Assembly (NCBI GenBank): GCA_023205875.1 | Contig: CP060756.1 | Location: 1,302,001 to 1,366,000 of the forward strand | DNA: 64,000 nt | Direction of reading: 5' to 3' | Origin: Chloropicon primus | Taxonomy: Eukaryota > Chlorophyta > Chloropicophyceae > Chloropicales > Chloropicaceae | Shown here: positions 17,745 to 64,000 of the stretch, piece by piece | How the letters are laid out: each line of letters begins with the position of its first letter | Position numbering within the stretch: the stretch's first letter is position 1 | Made by a program: the position numbers and the translations under genes | Notes under the pieces: model-generated | Told to the model about the DNA's origin: nothing | The model's input: only the letters and a program-made list of their open reading frames with translations | Databases searched by the model: none

Positions 17745-18017
17745 TCAAGTAATGCCAATGCCAGACGAGAGAGAGAGATGGAGGGAGCTTCCTTCCTTCT
17801 TCACTTCAATTGTTTGGTCAACCGCGTCGCCCAACCTCACCAGAACGAACGAGCTCGGTGCTCCGTGCCACGGACGCCACCTGCCTGCTGCTCTTGCTGC
17901 TGACTGAGAGAGAAGACCTCTGTGGCACGCCACCTGCTGCTCCATCTTTGGACTTTTCGTTGTTTGCAACAACAGTTTTGCAACACCGCACGAACGCGCG
18001 CCAAAGGTGTCGACTCG

Positions 18018-18344
18018 ATGACGGCTTTTTCGGCGAGCACTGGGAGGAGGAAGAAGACCCTGTGGATCCTCGCGGCGGTCGCGGCGTTGCTGCTGAGCTC
18101 GGCCCTGGCCGCGGAGAAGCCCGACGACGACTACGACTACGAGGACGAGGACTTCGACGACTACGAGGACGAGGGTGCCCTCGGGGCGCTGGACTCGCTG
18201 CCGACGGCATCAGCCAGCATCGACGCGGAGGTAGCGGTCGCGGAAGCGGTTGAGGGAGCGATCGAGGAGATCGCCGCGGGCCTCTTCCAAAACCTCGGCG
18301 AGGGCCTCCTGGAGTCCGACTCGGCGTCCTCCTCGTGGTCGTGA
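18018..18344 (+). CDS. Small secreted acidic protein, copy 1
   Basis: 108 aa of unrecognised family. A signal peptide covers ~residues 1-32: basic RRKK, hydrophobic LWILAAVAALLLSSALA, predicted cleavage before AEKPDDD. A very acidic Asp/Tyr/Glu stretch follows (DDDYDYEDEDFDDYEDE), then an amphipathic helical part rich in Ala, Glu and Ile, ending in Ser/Trp. There are no cysteines in the mature part. Compared with copy 2, the acidic stretch is longer by nine residues and the helical part lacks a basic insert (RSVRRN). A TGTAA motif lies in the 3' flank. Possible roles include cation binding or mineral/matrix association; none is proven. Confidence 0.65.
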   Translation: MTAFSASTGRRKKTLWILAAVAALLLSSALAAEKPDDDYDYEDEDFDDYEDEGALGALDSLPTASASIDAEVAVAEAVEGAIEEIAAGLFQNLGEGLLESDSASSSWS

Positions 18345-18794
18345 GGGGCAGTGTGCATGCGTGGGTGCGTGCGTGCGTGCGTTAAAAAAACCAAAAATGC
18401 AGGCGCTGGTCCCCCTTCTTGTAAAACAACCAACACTTCTCCTGCTCGTTCGAAATAGAATGTGGGGCGCCCTTGTGGGGCAAGAGAGAGATGGACGAAT
18501 CAAGTCATGCCAATGCCCCTCTCTTGGGGCAAGAGAGAGAGAGATGGAGGGAGGGAGCTTCCTTCCTTCTTCCTTCTTCACTTCAATTGTTTGGTCAACC
18601 GCGTCGCCCAACCTCACCAGAACGAACGAGCTCGGTGCTCCGTGCCACGGACGCCACCTGCCTGCTGCTCTTGCTGCTGACTGAGAGAGAAGACCTCTGT
18701 GGCACGCCACCTGCTGCTCCATCTTTGGACTTTTCGTTGTTTGCAACAACAGTTTTGCAACACCGCACGAACGCGCGCCAAAGGTGTCGACTCG

Positions 18795-19112
18795 ATGACG
18801 GCTTTTTCGGCGAGCACTGGGAGGAGGAAGAAGACCCTGTGGATCCTCGCGGCGGTCGCGGCGTTGCTGCTGAGCTCGGCCCTGGCCGCGGAGAAGCCCG
18901 ACGACGACTACGAGGACGAGGGTGCCCTCGGGGCGCTGGACTCGCTGCCGACGGCATCAGCCAGCATCGACGCGGAGGTACGTTCCGTCCGAAGGAACGC
19001 GGAGATCGCGGAAGCGGTGGAGGAAGCGATCGAGGAGATCGCCGGGGGCTTCATCCGAAACCTCGGCGAGGGCCTCCTGGAGTCTGACCCGGCGGAGTCC
19101 TCGTGGTCGTGA
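18795..19112 (+). CDS. Small secreted acidic protein, copy 2
   Basis: 105 aa, paralogue of the gene 777 bp upstream with an identical signal peptide and 5' flank. The acidic stretch is shortened to DDDYEDEG. The helical part gains RSVRRNAEIAEAVEEAI, making this copy less acidic and more amphipathic. Both copies keep an intact frame and stop. The contrast between identical leaders and altered mature regions suggests functional divergence after duplication, or slippage in the GAC-rich part. Function unknown. Confidence 0.65.
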   Translation: MTAFSASTGRRKKTLWILAAVAALLLSSALAAEKPDDDYEDEGALGALDSLPTASASIDAEVRSVRRNAEIAEAVEEAIEEIAGGFIRNLGEGLLESDPAESSWS

Positions 19113-19397
19113 GGGGCAGTGTGCATGCGTGGGTGCGTGCGTGCGTGCGTTAAAAAAACCAAAAATGCATGTCTATCCCCCTTCTTGTAAAACAACCAAC
19201 ACTTCTCCTGCTCGTTCATCATCGTCCTTTTACCTTGCCCAGTGCTCTCTCCCCCTCCTCCTGCCGCAACATACTGATAGAGATCACTTTACACGAGCCG
19301 CGAGCAGGTTCCACGCCCGCTTGGGGTGCCTCCGCGTCCAAGACAATTCCCTCCTATCTCTGTCTCTGTCTCTTTGTCTCTAAAACTGCTGCTGCAG

Positions 19398-19535
19398 TTA
19401 CGCGGGCTTGAAAGGTATGCTGGTGAAGCTGTCGTCCCAACGCTTGAAGGCCGGGTGGTAAGCAAAGTCCTTGATCAGCAGCTTGATTCCCTGGGCGGTG
19501 CTTCTCCTTGGCCTCCGGCATTCTTCGATCTCGAT
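19398..19535 (-). CDS. Orphan-looking terminal exon of unknown gene
   Basis: Preceded on the minus strand by a good acceptor (GTGACTTATC branch-like, then TTTGCCACCAG), this 138-nt frame encodes 45 residues and a stop. Codon use is that of real local genes (AAG, GCC, CTG). It includes STAQGIKLLIKDFAYHPAF and ends SIPFKPA. I do not recognise it. No matching upstream exon is evident: the next ~270 bp hold the structured 3' region of the Fanzor locus, then the Fanzor ORF itself. A short intron-less ORF from 19598 is the alternative reading. It may be the remaining 3' end of a gene interrupted by the element. Confidence 0.4.
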   Translation of the reverse strand: MEIEECRRPRRSTAQGIKLLIKDFAYHPAFKRWDDSFTSIPFKPA

Positions 19536-19599
19536 CTGGTGGCAAACAGATAAGTCACGAAAGGACGGTAAGAAAATCACAGTCAATACTGGAAGCACA

Positions 19600-19801
19600 A
19601 AGGCAAGTTCTCCTTTCCACTGTGGAACCCGGCCACAACTTACCTGTTAGTTTTCTGCAAAGGTCGTTTCACCGAGTTTGTAAGTTTCTCGGCAGGGTAA
19701 TTCAGCCCTACCACGACCATTCCACCGTACATGAACGAATACTTCCGCCCACTTAGCGCACGGCAGCCCGTACTAACAAACGTATGTGCAACCCTGAGGA
19801 G
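19600..19801 (-). ncRNA. Candidate Fanzor guide-RNA scaffold (omega/fRNA-like)
   Basis: Directly after the Fanzor stop codon, a compact fold can be drawn by hand. An outer stem pairs 19662-19667 with 19713-19718 (6 bp, GGTCGT/ACGACC). It encloses two hairpins: 19691-19697 with 19706-19712 (GGTAGGG/CCCTGCC, one wobble) and 19672-19676 with 19688-19692 (CCGAG/CTCGG; the two share two bases). A further near-perfect palindrome lies at 19615-19627. TnpB and Fanzor guide RNAs are known to derive from the 3' end of the nuclease gene and element, with the guide beyond the scaffold. Position and structure fit; transcription is not shown. Confidence 0.4.
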
Positions 19802-21976
19802 TTACACACTTTTTGGTTGACGCAAGTGCTTCAGGAGGACGTTGCGTGCCCCGTTCACATCCCGACCGCACTTGAAGCCACACTTCTGGCACTTGTACAC
19901 CTCTGCTCCACCCAGGTTGTCCTTGATGTGTCCGCACCTGCCACAGGTCTTGGAGGTGTACTCCTCCGTCACGATCGCCAGCTCACTGCCGTGCAAGAGC
20001 ACCTTGGAAGCCAAGAACGTTCTGAACGCATAGTGCCTCAACGTCAAGAGCGTGCGAGCCGTCTTCTTCCTGATCACTCGGCGTCTCCCGTTGTTGTTCT
20101 TCTTCACCATGTCTTGGGACTTGAACTCCGGGAGGAGGATTGTGTCGAACCTCCTGCATAGATCGTTGGCTACCTTTTTGTGAAGCTCGTTCGTCAGACC
20201 TCGAAGTTTCTCCATGCAGGCGTATTGCTGTCTCTTCAAGTCGCGGCGGTCGAGGTAAGGGAGCTTCACCTTGGGATCTTCGCGCTCGGAAATGATCCCA
20301 TCAATCCTCCAGCAGAGGTTGAACAGCCTCGCGAAGCCTCGCTCGCCCGTGGCATACTCCCCGACGCCTTCTTGCGGCGAGTACGACGTCTGAAAGGTCC
20401 TGACTCCCGGATCCAGGGCGACAACCTTCCGCTTGTTCTCAGGCTTCAGGGGTGGCAGGCGATCCCATGGCGTCGCGATGGGAATGTGCATGTGGAACTG
20501 CCCAAGGCGATTTCTTGTGATCTTCACGGCACCCTCGATCTTGCCCCCGGGGATCTCCTCCGTCAAGTACAGGGGCCCGCCGGCCATCTTCTCCTTGAAC
20601 ACCTCCAGCTTGGTCCACTTGCGTCGTTTCTTGTGCTTGGTGTCATCCTTGTGTCTCGTGTTTGGCCTTTCGATCGTCTCCACGTTCTTTAACTCTCTTG
20701 CATCAATTTCAATGGTCCAAGAACTCGGTTGCTGACGTTGACGATACTTGAGAACGAAGCGGTGCCCCTTCTCCTCGCCGCGCTCCTTCATCGCTTCCTG
20801 CTTCGCGATGTTCGAATCCCATGCCTTGATGAGACTTCGCACGGCAGCTTGTCTGATGGCACAGGGGGTTTCCTTCAGCCAAGGATGCTGCTGATTTACA
20901 AAGGCCCCGCTAACGTAGTCCCGGTCCTTGGCGACTTGGAGGCGAAAAGCTCTGCCTCCAATTTGGCTCTCGAGTCTGTTCTCTCTGGCCGCGAAAAGCT
21001 CTGCCTCCTGTTTTGTCCATGGCCGTGGAGAGCATTGGATTTCTTTCAGCTCTTTCTTCAGGCCCTCAAAGACCTCAGGGCCTCGAGGTTTGGCCGTCAC
21101 AAATCTGTCCAGCAGGACGGTCCAAACCAGCGGAAAACGCTCCTTCTTGACCGCCTCCAAACACTTGTTGTATGTGAAACGCGCAGCTCCCATCCAGTTG
21201 CAAAGGCACTTCGCCTGCTCAGGGTTCAAGCGCATCCTCAGCTTCCTCGTCCGTATCACCGTTCGCTCCGACAATAGCTTGGAGGTCTTCAGTTTCTGCC
21301 CCCTCTTCCTTTTGGCGGGCGGCTGCAATGTCTCGACGGATACCACAGAATCTTCTGGAAGGTTCAAGCACGACCTCCATCCCGTCTTCGGACACTTTAC
21401 CTCTTCAAGTTCTCTCTTCATCGATGAGAACCAGGTCTTCTTCACGCTGTCGCCCGCCAAGCCACCCGGCTGCTTCCCTGCTTTCTTCCCCCTCTTGTTC
21501 TTCTTCTTCTTACCCTTCTTCTTGTTCTTCTTCTTGCCCTTCTTGCGAGGCTTCTTGCGAGGCTTGCCTGACGAGCTCGAACTCTCACCCGCAGAGGAAG
21601 CCGCCTCCGGCGGCTTCCCCTTCCGCTTCCGCTTCCCCCCCCGCTTCTTGCGAGGCGTGCTCGAACCCTCCTCGAAAGCAGAGGCGGGGTCGTCCAGCGG
21701 CTTCTCCTTCCGCTTCCCCCCCCGCTTCTTGCGAGGCGTGCTCGAACCCTCACCCGCAGAGGCGGGGTCGTCCGCGATAGGAAGCAGGCACAACGCGTAG
21801 AGCCAGGCTAAACCCTGATTCCAGAACCGACGTAACGGCTCCGTCGTCGGAGACTCCTGCCCCGACTTCGAAGCGCCCTGAGCATGACTCTCGCCAGAGT
21901 GCGACCTCCTTGTGGAACTCGTCGAGCCACTCCCCTGCTTCTCCTTTTTCTTACGGCGCTTCCCTGATCGCGCCAT
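19802..21976 (-). CDS. Fanzor: eukaryotic TnpB-like RNA-guided endonuclease
   Basis: 724 aa, single exon, intact. Fanzors are eukaryotic relatives of transposon TnpB and Cas12 that cut DNA guided by an RNA made from the element's 3' end. The RuvC-like catalytic triad is complete: Asp522 (VVALDPGVRTFQT), Glu617 (ILLPEFKSQDM) and Asp706 (CGRDVNGARN). A zinc ribbon lies between (Cys678/681 and Cys696/699). Upstream, RKLRMRLNPEQAKCLCNWMG matches the TnpB N-terminal helix-turn-helix start. Residues 1-235 are a Lys/Ser-rich extension with two EGSSTPRKKRGGKRK repeats and a long K-run, absent from bacterial TnpB and likely nuclear-targeting. Codon use resembles the neighbours, so it is not contamination. 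A telobox lies 8 bp before the ATG. No terminal repeats or partner transposase were found, so it may be a non-autonomous or domesticated copy. Confidence 0.88.
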   Translation of the reverse strand: MARSGKRRKKKEKQGSGSTSSTRRSHSGESHAQGASKSGQESPTTEPLRRFWNQGLAWLYALCLLPIADDPASAGEGSSTPRKKRGGKRKEKPLDDPASAFEEGSSTPRKKRGGKRKRKGKPPEAASSAGESSSSSGKPRKKPRKKGKKKNKKKGKKKKNKRGKKAGKQPGGLAGDSVKKTWFSSMKRELEEVKCPKTGWRSCLNLPEDSVVSVETLQPPAKRKRGQKLKTSKLLSERTVIRTRKLRMRLNPEQAKCLCNWMGAARFTYNKCLEAVKKERFPLVWTVLLDRFVTAKPRGPEVFEGLKKELKEIQCSPRPWTKQEAELFAARENRLESQIGGRAFRLQVAKDRDYVSGAFVNQQHPWLKETPCAIRQAAVRSLIKAWDSNIAKQEAMKERGEEKGHRFVLKYRQRQQPSSWTIEIDARELKNVETIERPNTRHKDDTKHKKRRKWTKLEVFKEKMAGGPLYLTEEIPGGKIEGAVKITRNRLGQFHMHIPIATPWDRLPPLKPENKRKVVALDPGVRTFQTSYSPQEGVGEYATGERGFARLFNLCWRIDGIISEREDPKVKLPYLDRRDLKRQQYACMEKLRGLTNELHKKVANDLCRRFDTILLPEFKSQDMVKKNNNGRRRVIRKKTARTLLTLRHYAFRTFLASKVLLHGSELAIVTEEYTSKTCGRCGHIKDNLGGAEVYKCQKCGFKCGRDVNGARNVLLKHLRQPKSV

Positions 21977-21993: not shown

Positions 21994-22222
21994 CACTCGC
22001 TTCCCTCCTCGTAACTCCTCGTAACTATAGATTTGCCTTGTCCAGCAAGTGAGAACACGAGAAAAACGCTTAGGGGGTTGTCCTTTGGGTGTGACCAAAC
22101 TGGTATACACTGGAATCCCACCAACAGGGGAAAACCTCCAACATCTGGTGGCCACGAGAGAGAGCCAGGGGTGGGGGTGACGACGACAGAGCCTCTCTGT
22201 CTGTCCTCGCTTTCGCTGCACC

Positions 22223-63500: not shown

Positions 63501-64000
63501 CAGTCTCCACCATGCTCTGATCCACATATACACACCAGCCTCCGCCATTGTGAATCTCACTTAGAGGCAAACAAGACTCATCAACCTTATTGCTTGTGTC
63601 ATGAGATCCAAAGTGCAGTGAAGTGGATTGTACGCCACTCAGAGCACAAGCTCGTAGAATGCCGTATATCATAGCATTTCCCTGGTCCCCGACAAAAGGT
63701 GCAGGAACACCACAAGAGGTGGATGTGGTTGATTTGGAAACCAACTTGAGGTCGCAAGAGCTCATTTGGTTGTATTTGTCCTGAAGGACAGCAATTGTAC
63801 TCAGGGATAATGCCACAAGGGACGCAGGGTGATCGAGCAAGCACGATTTCTGCTCAACAAAAGAGTCAGCGTCTCCTCCGCTCCATACGTGGCATGAAGA
63901 TGCACTCATGTCATCCAAGACTTGCGCAGAAGAGATCACAGGGCACACAGATTGCCATGACAACGTGTACTGCACTTGCTCGGAGAGGTCCGCGGAGCTT
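52405..64000 (-). CDS. Giant modular trans-AT-like type I polyketide synthase, internal part (runs off right edge)
   Basis: An open frame of more than 3,850 codons continues in from beyond the right edge; nothing like a start codon context occurs, and the sequence at the edge matches the interior of sister modules (DLSEQVQYTLSWQ). Domain order from the edge: half KR and KR-ACP (module 1), KS-DH*-KR-ACP-ACP (module 2), KS-DH*-KR-ACP (module 3), KS-DH (start of module 4). Intact motifs include KS DTACSSSL/HGTGT/GHSEAAAG in modules 2-4 and duplicate ACP serines in module 2. The DH of module 4 has the canonical HVISGQALLP and CPAVLDASLQ. The frame passes into the neighbouring one at 52,405-52,465. 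Chain-building is from the right; the loading module is outside the window. Confidence 0.93.
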   Translation of the reverse strand, partial: SSADLSEQVQYTLSWQSVCPVISSAQVLDDMSASSCHVWSGGDADSFVEQKSCLLDHPASLVALSLSTIAVLQDKYNQMSSCDLKLVSKSTTSTSCGVPAPFVGDQGNAMIYGILRACALSGVQSTSLHFGSHDTSNKVDESCLPLSEIHNGGGWCVYVDQSMVETAAMVPCFPHSSQSLSSVAGSWVVTGGTGALGLLTGQHLTQHGIDCVLMLGRTGHIKSMSKGLCGHSCGAEVQILHCDVSCAEDCHLLGGLGVQGVMHAGGVLADSVLSNQTAQSVKQVFAPKVVGLHQLAKTFAMEAMGAQVLFSSVAALLGSAGQTNYAAANAVLDAQAHMWQNAGVSAVSVQWGPWASGGMAVKHAKRMEQMGLYMLSPYEGLFALQSIAGRVCGGGGCLDNAMWSSHAQVAVQRFMWDRFLSRMTHVPPLFSNMHDTASHGHGSSIDATRMSNTSASAASGMTLDADVLQQKVKEAVHAVVGHEVSPDDPLMAAGLDSLGAMELRSSLEQSLGIDLPGMLIFDYPSVHAIIEYAETLLGPKQVPLASAAISTGIRTVSEGSVSVHMLSLAARLPTPEHNLCQTSNAGDSIWRVPHMRWDADEDYKDGAPIVPIRFGGFLDGIELFDIPCFGVSRSEACWMDPHQRLLLEVSYEALHSMESDSSSSWMHQKQRMGVMVGTQKIEYSNIYAGYGHKSEVHAVTSGSLSVSAGRLSFTYGLQGACAAVDTACSSSLVAAHMSYMGLVLGQLSKGLVCGVDLQISRDTFGSIQRAGMLAPDGRCKTLDASADGYVRAEACIACVLGPLEDGSKQDTVMLRGTAVNQDGRSSALTAPHGPSQQQVMRMSLHSADLDAWNVQVLQMHGTGTPLGDPIEVGAASAVLLSEATKRDFPVHMSGVKSNMGHSEAAAGMAGMVQLAGNLMHKSASAISHLRHLNHHILSMVGGAVDLSRQSSSLACGDVCIGEVGAFAFQGTNAHALLSHCSGSVGNIDTVSRPGLVMLWQRERCWYVCKLPKLLSRVAFAQGGDISLEGMLNRVQHAFIWQHLFNGRPIAGMGSLIEMCAGTIDVLRSGGKNEKTDSYVMRNLTMPAPIVLDDSTSQTVNVLVQRKNEISVVCGGSSQSKTCLAGTTQWAPSTNHHSEDDVQKHMRVFDTDLSNASPSATYLGYMLPNINEMVSSEDGYVVNPVHLAMCLGLGEWSHLSGLACGADAMRMGTSSYSSAGDWLCLANRGKSSRTEMSRFGAVELNGTLHRKDLSVPLSRMRSSADLSEQVQYTLSWQSVCPVISSAQVLDDMSASSCHVWSGGDADSFVEQKSCLLDHPASLVALSLSTIAVLQDKYNQMSSCDLKLVSKSTTSTSCGVPAPFVGDQGNAMIYGILRACALSGVQSTSLHFGSHDTSNKVDESCLPLSEIHNGGGWCVYVDQSMVETAAMVPCFPHSSQSLSSVAGSWVVTGGTGALGLLTGQHLTQHGIDCVLMLGRTGHIKSMSKGLCGHSCGAEVQILHCDVSCAEDCHLLGGLGVQGVMHAGGVLADSVLSNQTAQSVKQVFAPKVVGLHQLAKTFAMEAMGAQVLFSSVAALLGSAGQTNYAAANAVLDAQAHMWQNAGVSAVSVQWGPWASGGMAVKHAKRMEQMGLYMLSPYEGLFALESIAGRVCGGGGCLDNAMWSSHAQVAVQRFMWDRFLSRMTHVPPLFSNMHDTASHGHGSSIDATRMSNTSASAASGMTLDADVLQQKVKDAVHAVVGHEVSPDDPLMAAGLDSLGAMELRSSLEQSLGIDLPGMLIFDYPSVHAIIEYAESFIEPRQSSGTSGMDADVLQQKVKDAVHAVVGHDTNPDEPLMAAGLDSLGAMELRSSLEQSLGIDLPGMLIFDYPSVHAIIEYAETLLGPKQVPLASAAISTGIRTVSEGSVSVHMLSLAARLPTPEHNLCQTSNAGDSIWRVPHMRWDADEDYKDGAPIVPIRFGGFLDGIELFDIPCFGVSRSEACWMDPHQRLLLEVSYEALHSMESDSSSSWMHQKQRMGVMVGTQHVEYSNIYAGYGHKSEVHAVTSGSLGVSAGRLSFTYGLQGACAAVDTACSSSLVAAHMSYMGLVLGQLSKGLVCGAEIHMYRNTFFSIQIAGMLAPDGRCKTLDASADGYVRAEACIACVLGPLEDGSKQDTVMLRGTAVNQDGRSSALTAPHGPSQQQVMRMSLHSADLDAWNVQVLQMHGTGTPLGDPIEVGAASAVLLSEATKRDFPVHMSGVKSNMGHSEAAAGMAGMVQLAGNLMHKSASAISHLRHLNHHILSMLGSGSDKNNSLAVDLSRQSSSLACGDASVGGVSGFAFQGTNAHALLSHCSGSVGNIDTVSRPGLVMLWQRERCWYVCKLPKLLSRVAFAQGGDISLEGMLNRVQHAFIWQHLFNGRPIAGMGSLIEMCAGTIDVLRSGGKNEKTDSYVMRNLTMPAPIVLDDSTSQTVNVLVQRKNEISVVCGGSSQSKTCLAGTTQWAPSTNHHSEDDVQKHTRVFDTDLSNASPSATYLGYMLPNINEMVSSEDGYVVNPVHLAMCLGLGEWSHLSGLACGADAMRMGTSSYSSAGDWLCLANRGKSSRTEMSRFGAVELNGTLHRKDLSVPLSRMRSSADLSEQVQYTLSWQSVCPVISSAQVLDDMSASSCHVWSGGDADSFVEQKSCLLDHPASLVALSLSTIAVLQDKYNQMSSCDLKLVSKSTTSTSCGVPAPFVGDQGNAMIYGILRACALSGVQSTSLHFGSHDTSNKVDESCLPLSEIHNGGGWCVYVDQSMVETAAMVPCFPHSSQSLSSVAGSWVVTGGTGALGLLTGQHLTQHGIDCVLMLGRTGHIKSMSKGLCGHSCGAEVQILHCDVSCAEDCHLLGGLGVQGVMHAGGVLADSVLSNQTAQSVKQVFAPKVVGLHQLAKTFAMEAMGAQVLFSSVAALLGSAGQTNYAAANAVLDAQAHMWQNAGVSAVSVQWGPWASGGMAVKHAKRMEQMGLYMLSPYEGLFALQSIADRVCGGGGCLDNAMWSSHAQVAVQRFMWDRFLSRMTHVPPLFSNMHDTASHGHGSSIDATRMSNTSASAASGMTLDADVLQQKVKDAVHAVVGHEVSPDDPLMAAGLDSLGAMELRSSLEQSLGIDLPGMLIFDYPSVHAIIEYAETLLGPKQVPLASAAISTGIRTVSEGSVSVHMLSLAARLPTPEHNLCQTSNAGDSIWRVPHMRWDADEDYKDGAPIVPIRFGGFLDGIELFDIPCFGVSRSEACWMDPHQRLLLEVSYEALHSMESDSSSSWMHQKQRMGVMVGTQHVEYSNIYAGYGHKSEVHAVTSGSLSVSAGRLSFTYGLQGACAAVDTACSSSLVAAHMSYMGLVLGQLSKGLVCGVDLQISRDTFGSIQRAGMLAPDGRCKTLDASADGYVRAEACIACVLGPLEDGSKQDTVMLRGTAVNQDGRSSALTAPHGPSQQQVMRMSLHSADLDAWNVQVLQMHGTGTPLGDPIEVGAASAVLLSEATKRDFPVHMSGVKSNMGHSEAAAGMAGMVQLAGNLMHKSASAISHLRHLNHHILSMLGSGSDKNNSLAVDLSRQSSSLACGDASVGGVSGFAFQGTNAHALLSHCSGSVGNIDTVSRPGLVMLWQRERCWYTVDFDLMVSCAPARVLPNSCIFTCKMYHPAMAYLWDHVISGQALLPGAAFMELGYSSIASALRDSGLACEYSMCDSVIASPLSLEDLGENMVNSLYCTAELQLDTGGLTISSENTGRSQKRLHVHGKVQMQQAKDKRVNGDIERTGFSREVVRSKSRTLVNGAYLYPFFAAHGLQYGPSFALLSSVWLGSNEVHQPQFDIAVGNVENVLPTEDRGFKLCPAVLDASLQVGAAEECAP
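54555..58364 (-). other. PKS module 3: KS-DH*-KR-ACP
   Basis: KS ~57,010-58,290, inactive-looking DH* ~56,150-56,940, KR ~54,900-56,110, ACP ~54,560-54,790. Nearly identical to module 5 except in the KS, where the island CGAEIHMYRNTFFSIQIAGM (57,655-57,705) replaces GVDLQISRDTFGSIQRAGM. One SLSVS-to-SLGVS change is also seen. KR alone would leave a beta-hydroxyl on the chain. Confidence 0.85.
58365..62394 (-). other. PKS module 2: KS-DH*-KR-ACP-ACP (twin carrier)
   Basis: KS ~61,080-62,330 (DTACSSS near 61,810), DH-like ~60,200-61,000, structural and catalytic KR ~58,960-60,170, then two ACPs (~58,620-58,840 and ~58,365-58,590). The second ACP is joined by a short ESFIEPRQSSGTSG linker and has one variant loop (HDTNPDEPL instead of HEVSPDDPL). 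The DH-like domain keeps a His (HLFNGRPIAG) but the second motif reads VNPVHLAMCL, lacking the catalytic Asp, so it is probably inactive. The KS differs from the others at QKIEY and at GDVCIGEVGAFAF, and has lost an SGSDKNNS loop. Confidence 0.85.
62395..64000 (-). other. PKS module 1 (partial): KR and ACP
   Basis: From the edge inward: a non-catalytic structural half of a ketoreductase (~63,450-64,000), the NADPH-binding ketoreductase half (GGTGALG near 63,402-63,440; Tyr in TNYAAANA near 63,000), and an acyl carrier protein with its phosphopantetheine Ser in LDSLGAMEL at ~62,490-62,520. The KR has VLADSVL where B-type KRs have an LDD motif (the last Asp kept), suggesting B-type stereochemistry. 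Confidence 0.85.

Follow-up and report, generated by a model that had tools for sequence, protein, structure and literature searches.

An intact Fanzor gene, probably of the Fanzor2 lineage, in Chloropicon primus and the question of its guide RNA

A gene for a Fanzor, an RNA-guided nuclease, lies on the reverse strand of contig CP060756.1 of the green alga Chloropicon primus (assembly GCA_023205875.1), within a 64,000-nt stretch (positions 1,302,001-1,366,000; hereafter the window, in which all coordinates are counted), and it raises two questions: to which Fanzor lineage does the gene belong, and from where would its guide RNA come? An earlier note, made from the sequence, had described an intact nuclease gene followed by a structured putative guide RNA. 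The first of these claims is borne out, the gene being intact on the evidence of motifs, domains, phylogenetic trees and fold searches. The second is not established. The locus is probably best explained as an intact nuclear gene of the Fanzor2 lineage, whose product would be an imported RNA-guided nuclease and for which any RNA made in cis would be a remodelled or replaced scaffold from the 3′ flank.

The nuclease and its lineage

Active-site residues were placed by aligning the Fanzor protein with phage and bacterial TnpBs (Table 1). The three RuvC acids and the zinc ribbon that the earlier note had listed are present, as D522, E671, D706 and four cysteines, but the site usually occupied by the RuvC-II glutamate is a proline, P616 in 'LLPEF' (20129-20131, reverse strand). 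Judged from the alignment, the glutamate adjoining P616 should not be counted as catalytic, the conserved acid being E671, which is separated by six residues from the first cysteine of the ribbon. The Fanzor fingerprint (DPG, alternative glutamate, RD and C4 ribbon) is complete, and PMC10711439 describes the combination of DPG with the alternative glutamate as the mark that Fanzors share with one narrow IS607 TnpB clade, the 'pro-Fanzors'. Pfam detects the C-terminal TnpB/Cas12f1-like zinc ribbon PF07282 in the open reading frame (ORF) with an E-value of 8.7e-18, above the curated cut-off, together with a helix-turn-helix (HTH) domain. The core of the protein scores 101.5 bits with the NCBIfam TnpB family NF040570 (cut-off 100), for which the full-length protein falls just under the cut-off at 94.2 bits.

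The best match among proteins of solved structure is the mimivirus Fanzor2 L79 (E 2.4e-19), which a profile of the Fanzor core and 56 relatives finds at E 4.1e-65. An AlphaFold2 model of residues 171-724, made from 57 sequences including the protein itself, has a mean predicted local distance difference test score (pLDDT) of 73.9 and a predicted template modelling score of 0.71, and its best fold match in the PDB is again mimivirus Fanzor2 (9b0l; E 8.6e-17). Among the best 12 predicted viral folds nine are named and all nine come from giant or algal viruses, including Yasminevirus, Feldmannia species virus, Pandoravirus and a Chlorella virus. A single-sequence structure of the whole protein reached a pLDDT of 44 and was discarded. 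In a tree of 71 rows the Fanzor grouped with 59 others at 100/100, these being mostly TnpBs with DPG and the alternative glutamate (L001 and L010 have DVG), and in a tree of 57 rows it grouped with 50 others at 100/97. An HTH has been noted in some TnpB and Fanzor2 proteins (PMC3627910). The HTH points to Fanzor2, as do the sequence and the predicted fold, both of which resemble TnpB and mimivirus Fanzor2 more closely than Fanzor1. The mimivirus protein has in common with the one described here the DPG, the alternative glutamate, the C4 ribbon and the RD motif, and likewise has a Lys-rich N-terminus; it is shorter, at 520 residues versus 724, the Lys-rich and REC parts being longer in the algal protein.

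The length of the protein and its extra REC-region insertions would suit Fanzor1, the large eukaryotic branch, to which most algal Fanzors described in the papers cited here belong. These include CRe-1 to -3 of Chlamydomonas (PMC3627910) and GtFz1 of Guillardia (PMC10432273), which represent the same nuclease family and, relative to the present gene, a different branch. A Fanzor1 identity is nevertheless very improbable. The TDG motif of the WED domain, characteristic of Fanzor1 according to PMC10711439, is lacking from the protein, whereas HTH PF12323 is present; SpuFz1 is the sole Fanzor1 in the best 50 PDB folds listed, and stands only at rank 49 (E 1.8e-6); and sequence searches up to E 10 returned neither a chain labelled Fanzor1 nor any of the Fanzor1 entries that PMC11423790 names. 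An algal Fanzor2 is already published, from Chloropicon primus itself, and the Fanzor2* group described for this alga and for molluscs is likewise a nuclear Fanzor2 lineage outside an IS607 element (PMC10711439).

The nearest kin found by sequence, with short segments reaching 51% identity (L172), come from cyanobacteria, Chloroflexota and viral contigs and are TnpBs of the IS607 type; a single-sequence search of viral contigs for relatives of the Fanzor returned none. Such kinship is what bacterial contamination or a very recent transfer of a bacterial TnpB would produce, but this explanation is disfavoured as the least probable of those considered here. The closest row in the tree alignment (L139) is only 34% identical over 398 columns, and the aligned relatives have no counterpart of a Lys-rich insertion found in the algal protein. 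The genes on either side are eukaryotic (Mpv17, katanin, FHA and RRN3 by Pfam), which places the locus in a eukaryotic nuclear genome, and the GC content at third codon positions (GC3) of the Fanzor gene, 0.74, is close to and slightly below the 0.77-0.92 of its neighbours, a polyketide synthase region excluded.

N-terminal region and insertions

The relatives carry an N-terminal FW/YW..LP motif, of which FWNQGLAWLYALCLLPI is the candidate counterpart in the Fanzor. Against a profile of 48 distinct motifs FWNQGLAWLYALCLLPI scores 12.1 bits, a value reached by 2 of 2000 shuffles, yet four of the profile's own members reach 30-48 bits, and the correspondence is therefore likely but that of a diverged motif. 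MAFFT pairs FWNQGLAWLYALCLLPI with the motif of the relatives in one alignment and not in a second. Further along, TWF (residues 181-183) is aligned by MAFFT with the relatives in the latter alignment, where W182 is invariant in 15 rows. Between the two lies the low-complexity stretch that had been described as a two-repeat Lys-rich extension. The repeats are real, comprising 1.9 copies of an 81-nt unit in tandem (21626-21773), but the stretch is better regarded as an insertion within a conserved N-terminal region than as a plain extension, because FWNQGLAWLYALCLLPI and TWF, which flank it, both have counterparts in relatives. It is likely to act in nuclear localisation and nucleic-acid binding.

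In the relatives the FW/YW..LP motif sits in DNA that codes for tnpA in another frame. The motif was found in 61 of 81 related ORFs. At 43 of them a tnpA signature is also present nearby, and in all 43 the motif precedes the DRLxRFG codons by exactly 53 nt (L005, L127 and L130 are examples); some of these loci share a contig or are closely related. For the other 18 motif-bearing ORFs the search pattern picked up no tnpA signature at distances up to 400 nt. A variant or shortened tnpA is present at some of them (L011, by eye; L001, as annotated), and no tnpA was seen by eye among the longer ORFs of L009 and of the giant-virus-like contig L092, from which it follows that the motif can persist without tnpA. 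On the reading preferred here, the N-terminus of the Fanzor would descend from a stretch once common to tnpA and later split by the basic insertion, which probably serves nuclear import.

The REC region holds an insertion of its own (Table 1). Within it an 18-nt direct duplication occurs at 20942 and 20991 (20942-21008), the copies being 49 nt apart, which is not a multiple of 3; this may be the trace of a recent insertion or of a sequence that was once an intron.

Guide RNA of the relatives and the 3′ flank of the gene

The 'pro-Fanzor'-like IS607 TnpBs (L127 and others), which occur in cyanobacteria, viral contigs and elsewhere, share with the Fanzor the catalytic fingerprint and have the N-terminal FW..LP and (S/T)WF motifs. 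Many of them have a tnpA that overlaps the TnpB frame, and in most a guide RNA overlaps the gene at its 3′ end; neither is recognisable at the algal locus. As derived here, the guide RNA of the relatives is a fold that shows covariation and extends over the 3′ end of the TnpB gene. It comprises a hairpin over the NGA..LLKA codons, a five-base arm whose start is in most cases 45 nt past the RD codons, one or two hairpins and, close to the element's right end, a second arm that pairs with the five-base arm. This arrangement was recognised at 54 of 82 loci, a few of them probably by chance. Comparable long-range pairing has the support of mutation and rescue in ISXfa1 and is predicted in Fanzor2 (PMC10711439), and other IS607 guide RNAs have been described (PMC11061315).

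Across 17 sequences of cyanobacterial type, every one of the 187 cells that make up the hairpin and the long-range helix is paired, and 41 are changed on both sides, counts that none of 500 shuffles equalled for either measure; two other measures were less extreme (18 and 66 of 500 shuffles). A covariance model built on the 17 sequences (R2) finds the RNA at the TnpB 3′ end in 32 of 36 relatives outside the training set (E <= 0.001), L092 and its duplicate L207 included, and misses L161, L099, L009 and L011. In a set of 47 sequences, including L127, L128, L005, L140, L092 and L210, 93.0% of 1134 cells pair and 347 are changed on both sides, in an alignment fitted to the model. A wider model (R3) detects, at E <= 0.001, 12 of 19 relatives and none of seven other TnpB controls; the 19 include the four that R2 had missed, of which L161 is now found, and some close kin of training rows. 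Rfam gave no match to this guide RNA at gathering score in the 20 loci scanned. The L092 contig (IMGVR_UViG_3300013105_000001) is giant-virus-like, with a GC content of 0.29 and, by eye, a TFIIB-like reading frame, and its Fanzor2 still has the ancestral guide RNA (24.2 bits, E 0.0004), with no evident tnpA nearby.

At the algal locus the earlier note had placed a compact RNA fold immediately after the stop codon, with an outer 6-bp stem around two hairpins. A fold with this stem is predicted there, although the second hairpin has just 3 bp. Its folding energy, -19.6 kcal/mol, corresponds to z = -2.98 and is equalled or undercut by 9 of 1000 dinucleotide shuffles; among 400 random 57-nt stretches of the window four have z <= -3 and nine z <= -2.5. 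The fold is a hint, lying near the 1% level in a stretch picked by eye. Its outer stem forms with a probability of 0.87-0.97 when folded alone, of 0.46-0.51 in 19643-19780 and of 0.00 in 19600-19801, the stretch that begins directly after the stop codon. A long hairpin adjoins it, and the two are closed by an outer stem GTTAGT/ACTAAC into a 138-nt candidate domain (z -2.66, 12 of 1000 shuffles as low; 2 of 160 random 138-nt stretches reach -2.5), the random-stretch controls having been run at 57 and 138 nt. Longer stretches are weaker, with z -2.23 for 19600-19780 and z -1.84 for the whole of 19600-19802 (12 of 200 shuffles as low), and the hairpin at 19600-19643 gives no signal (z -0.5). In the window Rfam returned nothing at gathering score, the lower scores being chance-level matches only; no DNA relatives of 19400-20100 were found in phage and plasmid collections; and a one-sequence model of the 138-nt domain gave nothing above chance at 82 related loci (one match, L128, E 3.2).

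That the 57-nt fold forms the core of a guide-RNA scaffold, with the guide beginning beyond about 19,600, is on this evidence doubtful. Its z-score and a plausible distance from the stop codon speak for it, as does the placing of published Fanzor guide RNAs 3′ of the ORF or overlapping its end, with a stem-loop (PMC10432273); the dependence of the outer stem on where the RNA starts, the short second hairpin and the equal strength of the adjoining hairpin speak against it. A structured guide RNA at this position is thus a claim that the folding, modestly above chance and dependent on the RNA start, leaves unestablished.

The traces of element ends are faint. Weak inverted pairs flanking the gene number 0, 2, 4 and 1 at settings of 12, 16, 20 and 25 nt, versus 0-1, 0-1, 0-2 and 0 in five mononucleotide shuffles per setting, and most of them belong to a single overlapping set or to one pyrimidine-rich pair. 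The gene is also flanked, on the reverse strand, by a direct repeat of 10 bp, GCCACCAGAT (19534-19543 and 22143-22152), which is close to chance level, about 0.2 such pairs being expected at random. Fanzor2* elements, as described in PMC10711439, have terminal repeats and target duplications, whereas none is clear here. The 64-kb window holds no second Fanzor copy, and a Pfam scan of 16 further ORF stretches, which did not cover small ORFs, found no IS607 transposase (the serine recombinase tnpA).

Several of the results weigh against a Fanzor2-lineage nuclease with a cis RNA from its 3′ flank. In neither tree does the Fanzor (P0001), which sits on a long branch, have a resolved sister, and in the 57-row tree mimivirus L79 falls outside its group, a placement flagged as long branches meeting. 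The inverted pairs are in slight excess, and none of those listed has a target duplication longer than 2 bp. R2 reaches at best 2.9 bits in the window; the best R3 match, over 19678-19864, has 7.0 bits (E 0.15). This R3 match begins at the RD codons, a place at which shared coding sequence by itself earns score, and the TnpB control L012 exceeds it at 14.1 bits. A pseudoknot partner for the homologous arm CAACC (19815-19819) is found at chance level, about half of the shuffles doing as well (the candidates are a perfect GGTTG at 19789-19793 and a near match, AGTTG, at 19636-19640), and an ORF-internal stem is also at chance, being reached by 16% of synonymous shuffles. From the model scores, the chance-level partner and the chance-level stem it follows that the ancestral guide RNA is not recognisable here. 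The covariance search with models from related loci, a check that the earlier note had proposed, thus found no match at the locus, and since neither model matches anything there above chance, the assignment to the Fanzor2 lineage is made by the protein only.

The RNA used by the Fanzor would then be either a strongly remodelled one from the 3′ flank or not encoded in cis at all. A minor though tenable possibility is that the gene is solitary or domesticated, or a relic whose frame is still open, and has no cis guide RNA, its RNA partner being lost or supplied from elsewhere; this would be in line with the undetected ancestral RNA, the single copy in the window, the lack of clear element ends and the lack of an IS607 transposase among the ORFs scanned. 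The complete catalytic fingerprint and zinc ribbon and the 2.2-kb frame that is still open argue the other way, and a failed RNA search is weak evidence because Fanzor guide RNAs differ considerably in length among species (PMC11423790). It is also conceivable, if rather unlikely, that the gene shed an ORF-overlapping guide RNA, which most of its relatives retain, cyanobacterial ones and a giant-virus-like contig included, and either gained a new scaffold from the 3′ flank or was domesticated with its RNA in trans.

For the preferred explanation, an imported Fanzor2-lineage nuclease, the ORF, its motifs, lineage and predicted-fold similarity were computed here, and we infer nuclear import, RNA binding, cleavage and the location of the RNA. 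The protein would enter the nucleus by means of its Lys-rich stretch, bind an RNA composed of scaffold and guide and, as other Fanzors do, cut matching double-stranded DNA at a RuvC site formed by D522, E671 and D706. If made in cis, the RNA would most likely come from the 3′ flank, at about 19,600-19,800, because the ORF stops too early to contain the guide RNA of the relatives; ending as it does 18 residues after D706, it would leave such an RNA mostly 3′ of the stop codon. The scaffold would be strongly remodelled or replaced.

Table 1. Features of the Fanzor gene and its 3′ flank, in window coordinates
Feature	Position	Strand	Residues	Remarks
Fanzor ORF	19802-21976	-		724 aa, single frame without internal stop
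N-terminal motif FWNQGLAWLYALCLLPI	21776-21826	-	51-67	Likely counterpart of the IS607 TnpB FW/YW..LP motif
Lys/Gly/Ser/Arg-rich low-complexity insertion	21461-21763	-	72-172	30 of 101 residues Lys
HTH_OrfB_IS605 (PF12323)	21143-21256	-	241-278	E 1.9e-6, above curated cut-off
REC-region insertion	20912-21133	-	about 282-355	Mostly absent from aligned relatives; low-confidence prediction in large part
RuvC1 DPG motif	20405-20413	-	D522-P523-G524	Predicted catalytic D522; alignment
Alternative RuvC2 glutamate	19964-19966	-	E671	Alignment
C4 zinc ribbon	19880-19945	-	Cys 678/681/696/699	PF07282 and alignment
RuvC3 aspartate in RD motif (R705-D706)	19859-19861	-	D706	Alignment
Candidate RNA domain, putative scaffold	19643-19780	-		Outer stem closing both arms
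57-nt fold of the earlier note	19662-19718	-		Predicted: 6-bp outer stem, 7-bp hairpin, 3-bp second hairpin
Long hairpin adjoining the 57-nt fold	19719-19768	-		z -3.22, 4 of 1000 shuffles as low

Genomic surroundings and significance

Directly 3′ of the Fanzor gene, an exon-like open stretch with a GC3 of 0.77 (19398-19541, reverse strand) is preceded by an intron-like GTAAGT (19638-19643)...CACCAG (19536-19541); the stretch has no match in the PDB, or in Pfam above cut-off. Further out on the same side (17792-19217) is a tandemly duplicated small gene, its copies about 770 nt apart and 100% identical over 300 nt, whose product is acidic and, by eye, signal-peptide-like. From 36920 to the window's end at 64000 run giant, near-uninterrupted ORFs for a modular polyketide synthase (5181 aa and >3860 aa), identified by Pfam on one 1500-aa piece. 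This region has a GC content of about 50%, and its first ORF a GC3 of 0.47 versus 0.77-0.92 in seven neighbouring genes; judged by composition, it is perhaps of foreign origin.

An intact nuclear Fanzor2 with no recognised transposase beside it is a useful intermediate on the route by which Fanzors are proposed to have arisen from IS607 TnpBs, and it raises the question of how a guide RNA changes when a Fanzor becomes separated from its IS607 element. This lineage's RNA covariance model and the proposed origin of the N-terminal motif in an overlap with tnpA may be applied to other Fanzors.

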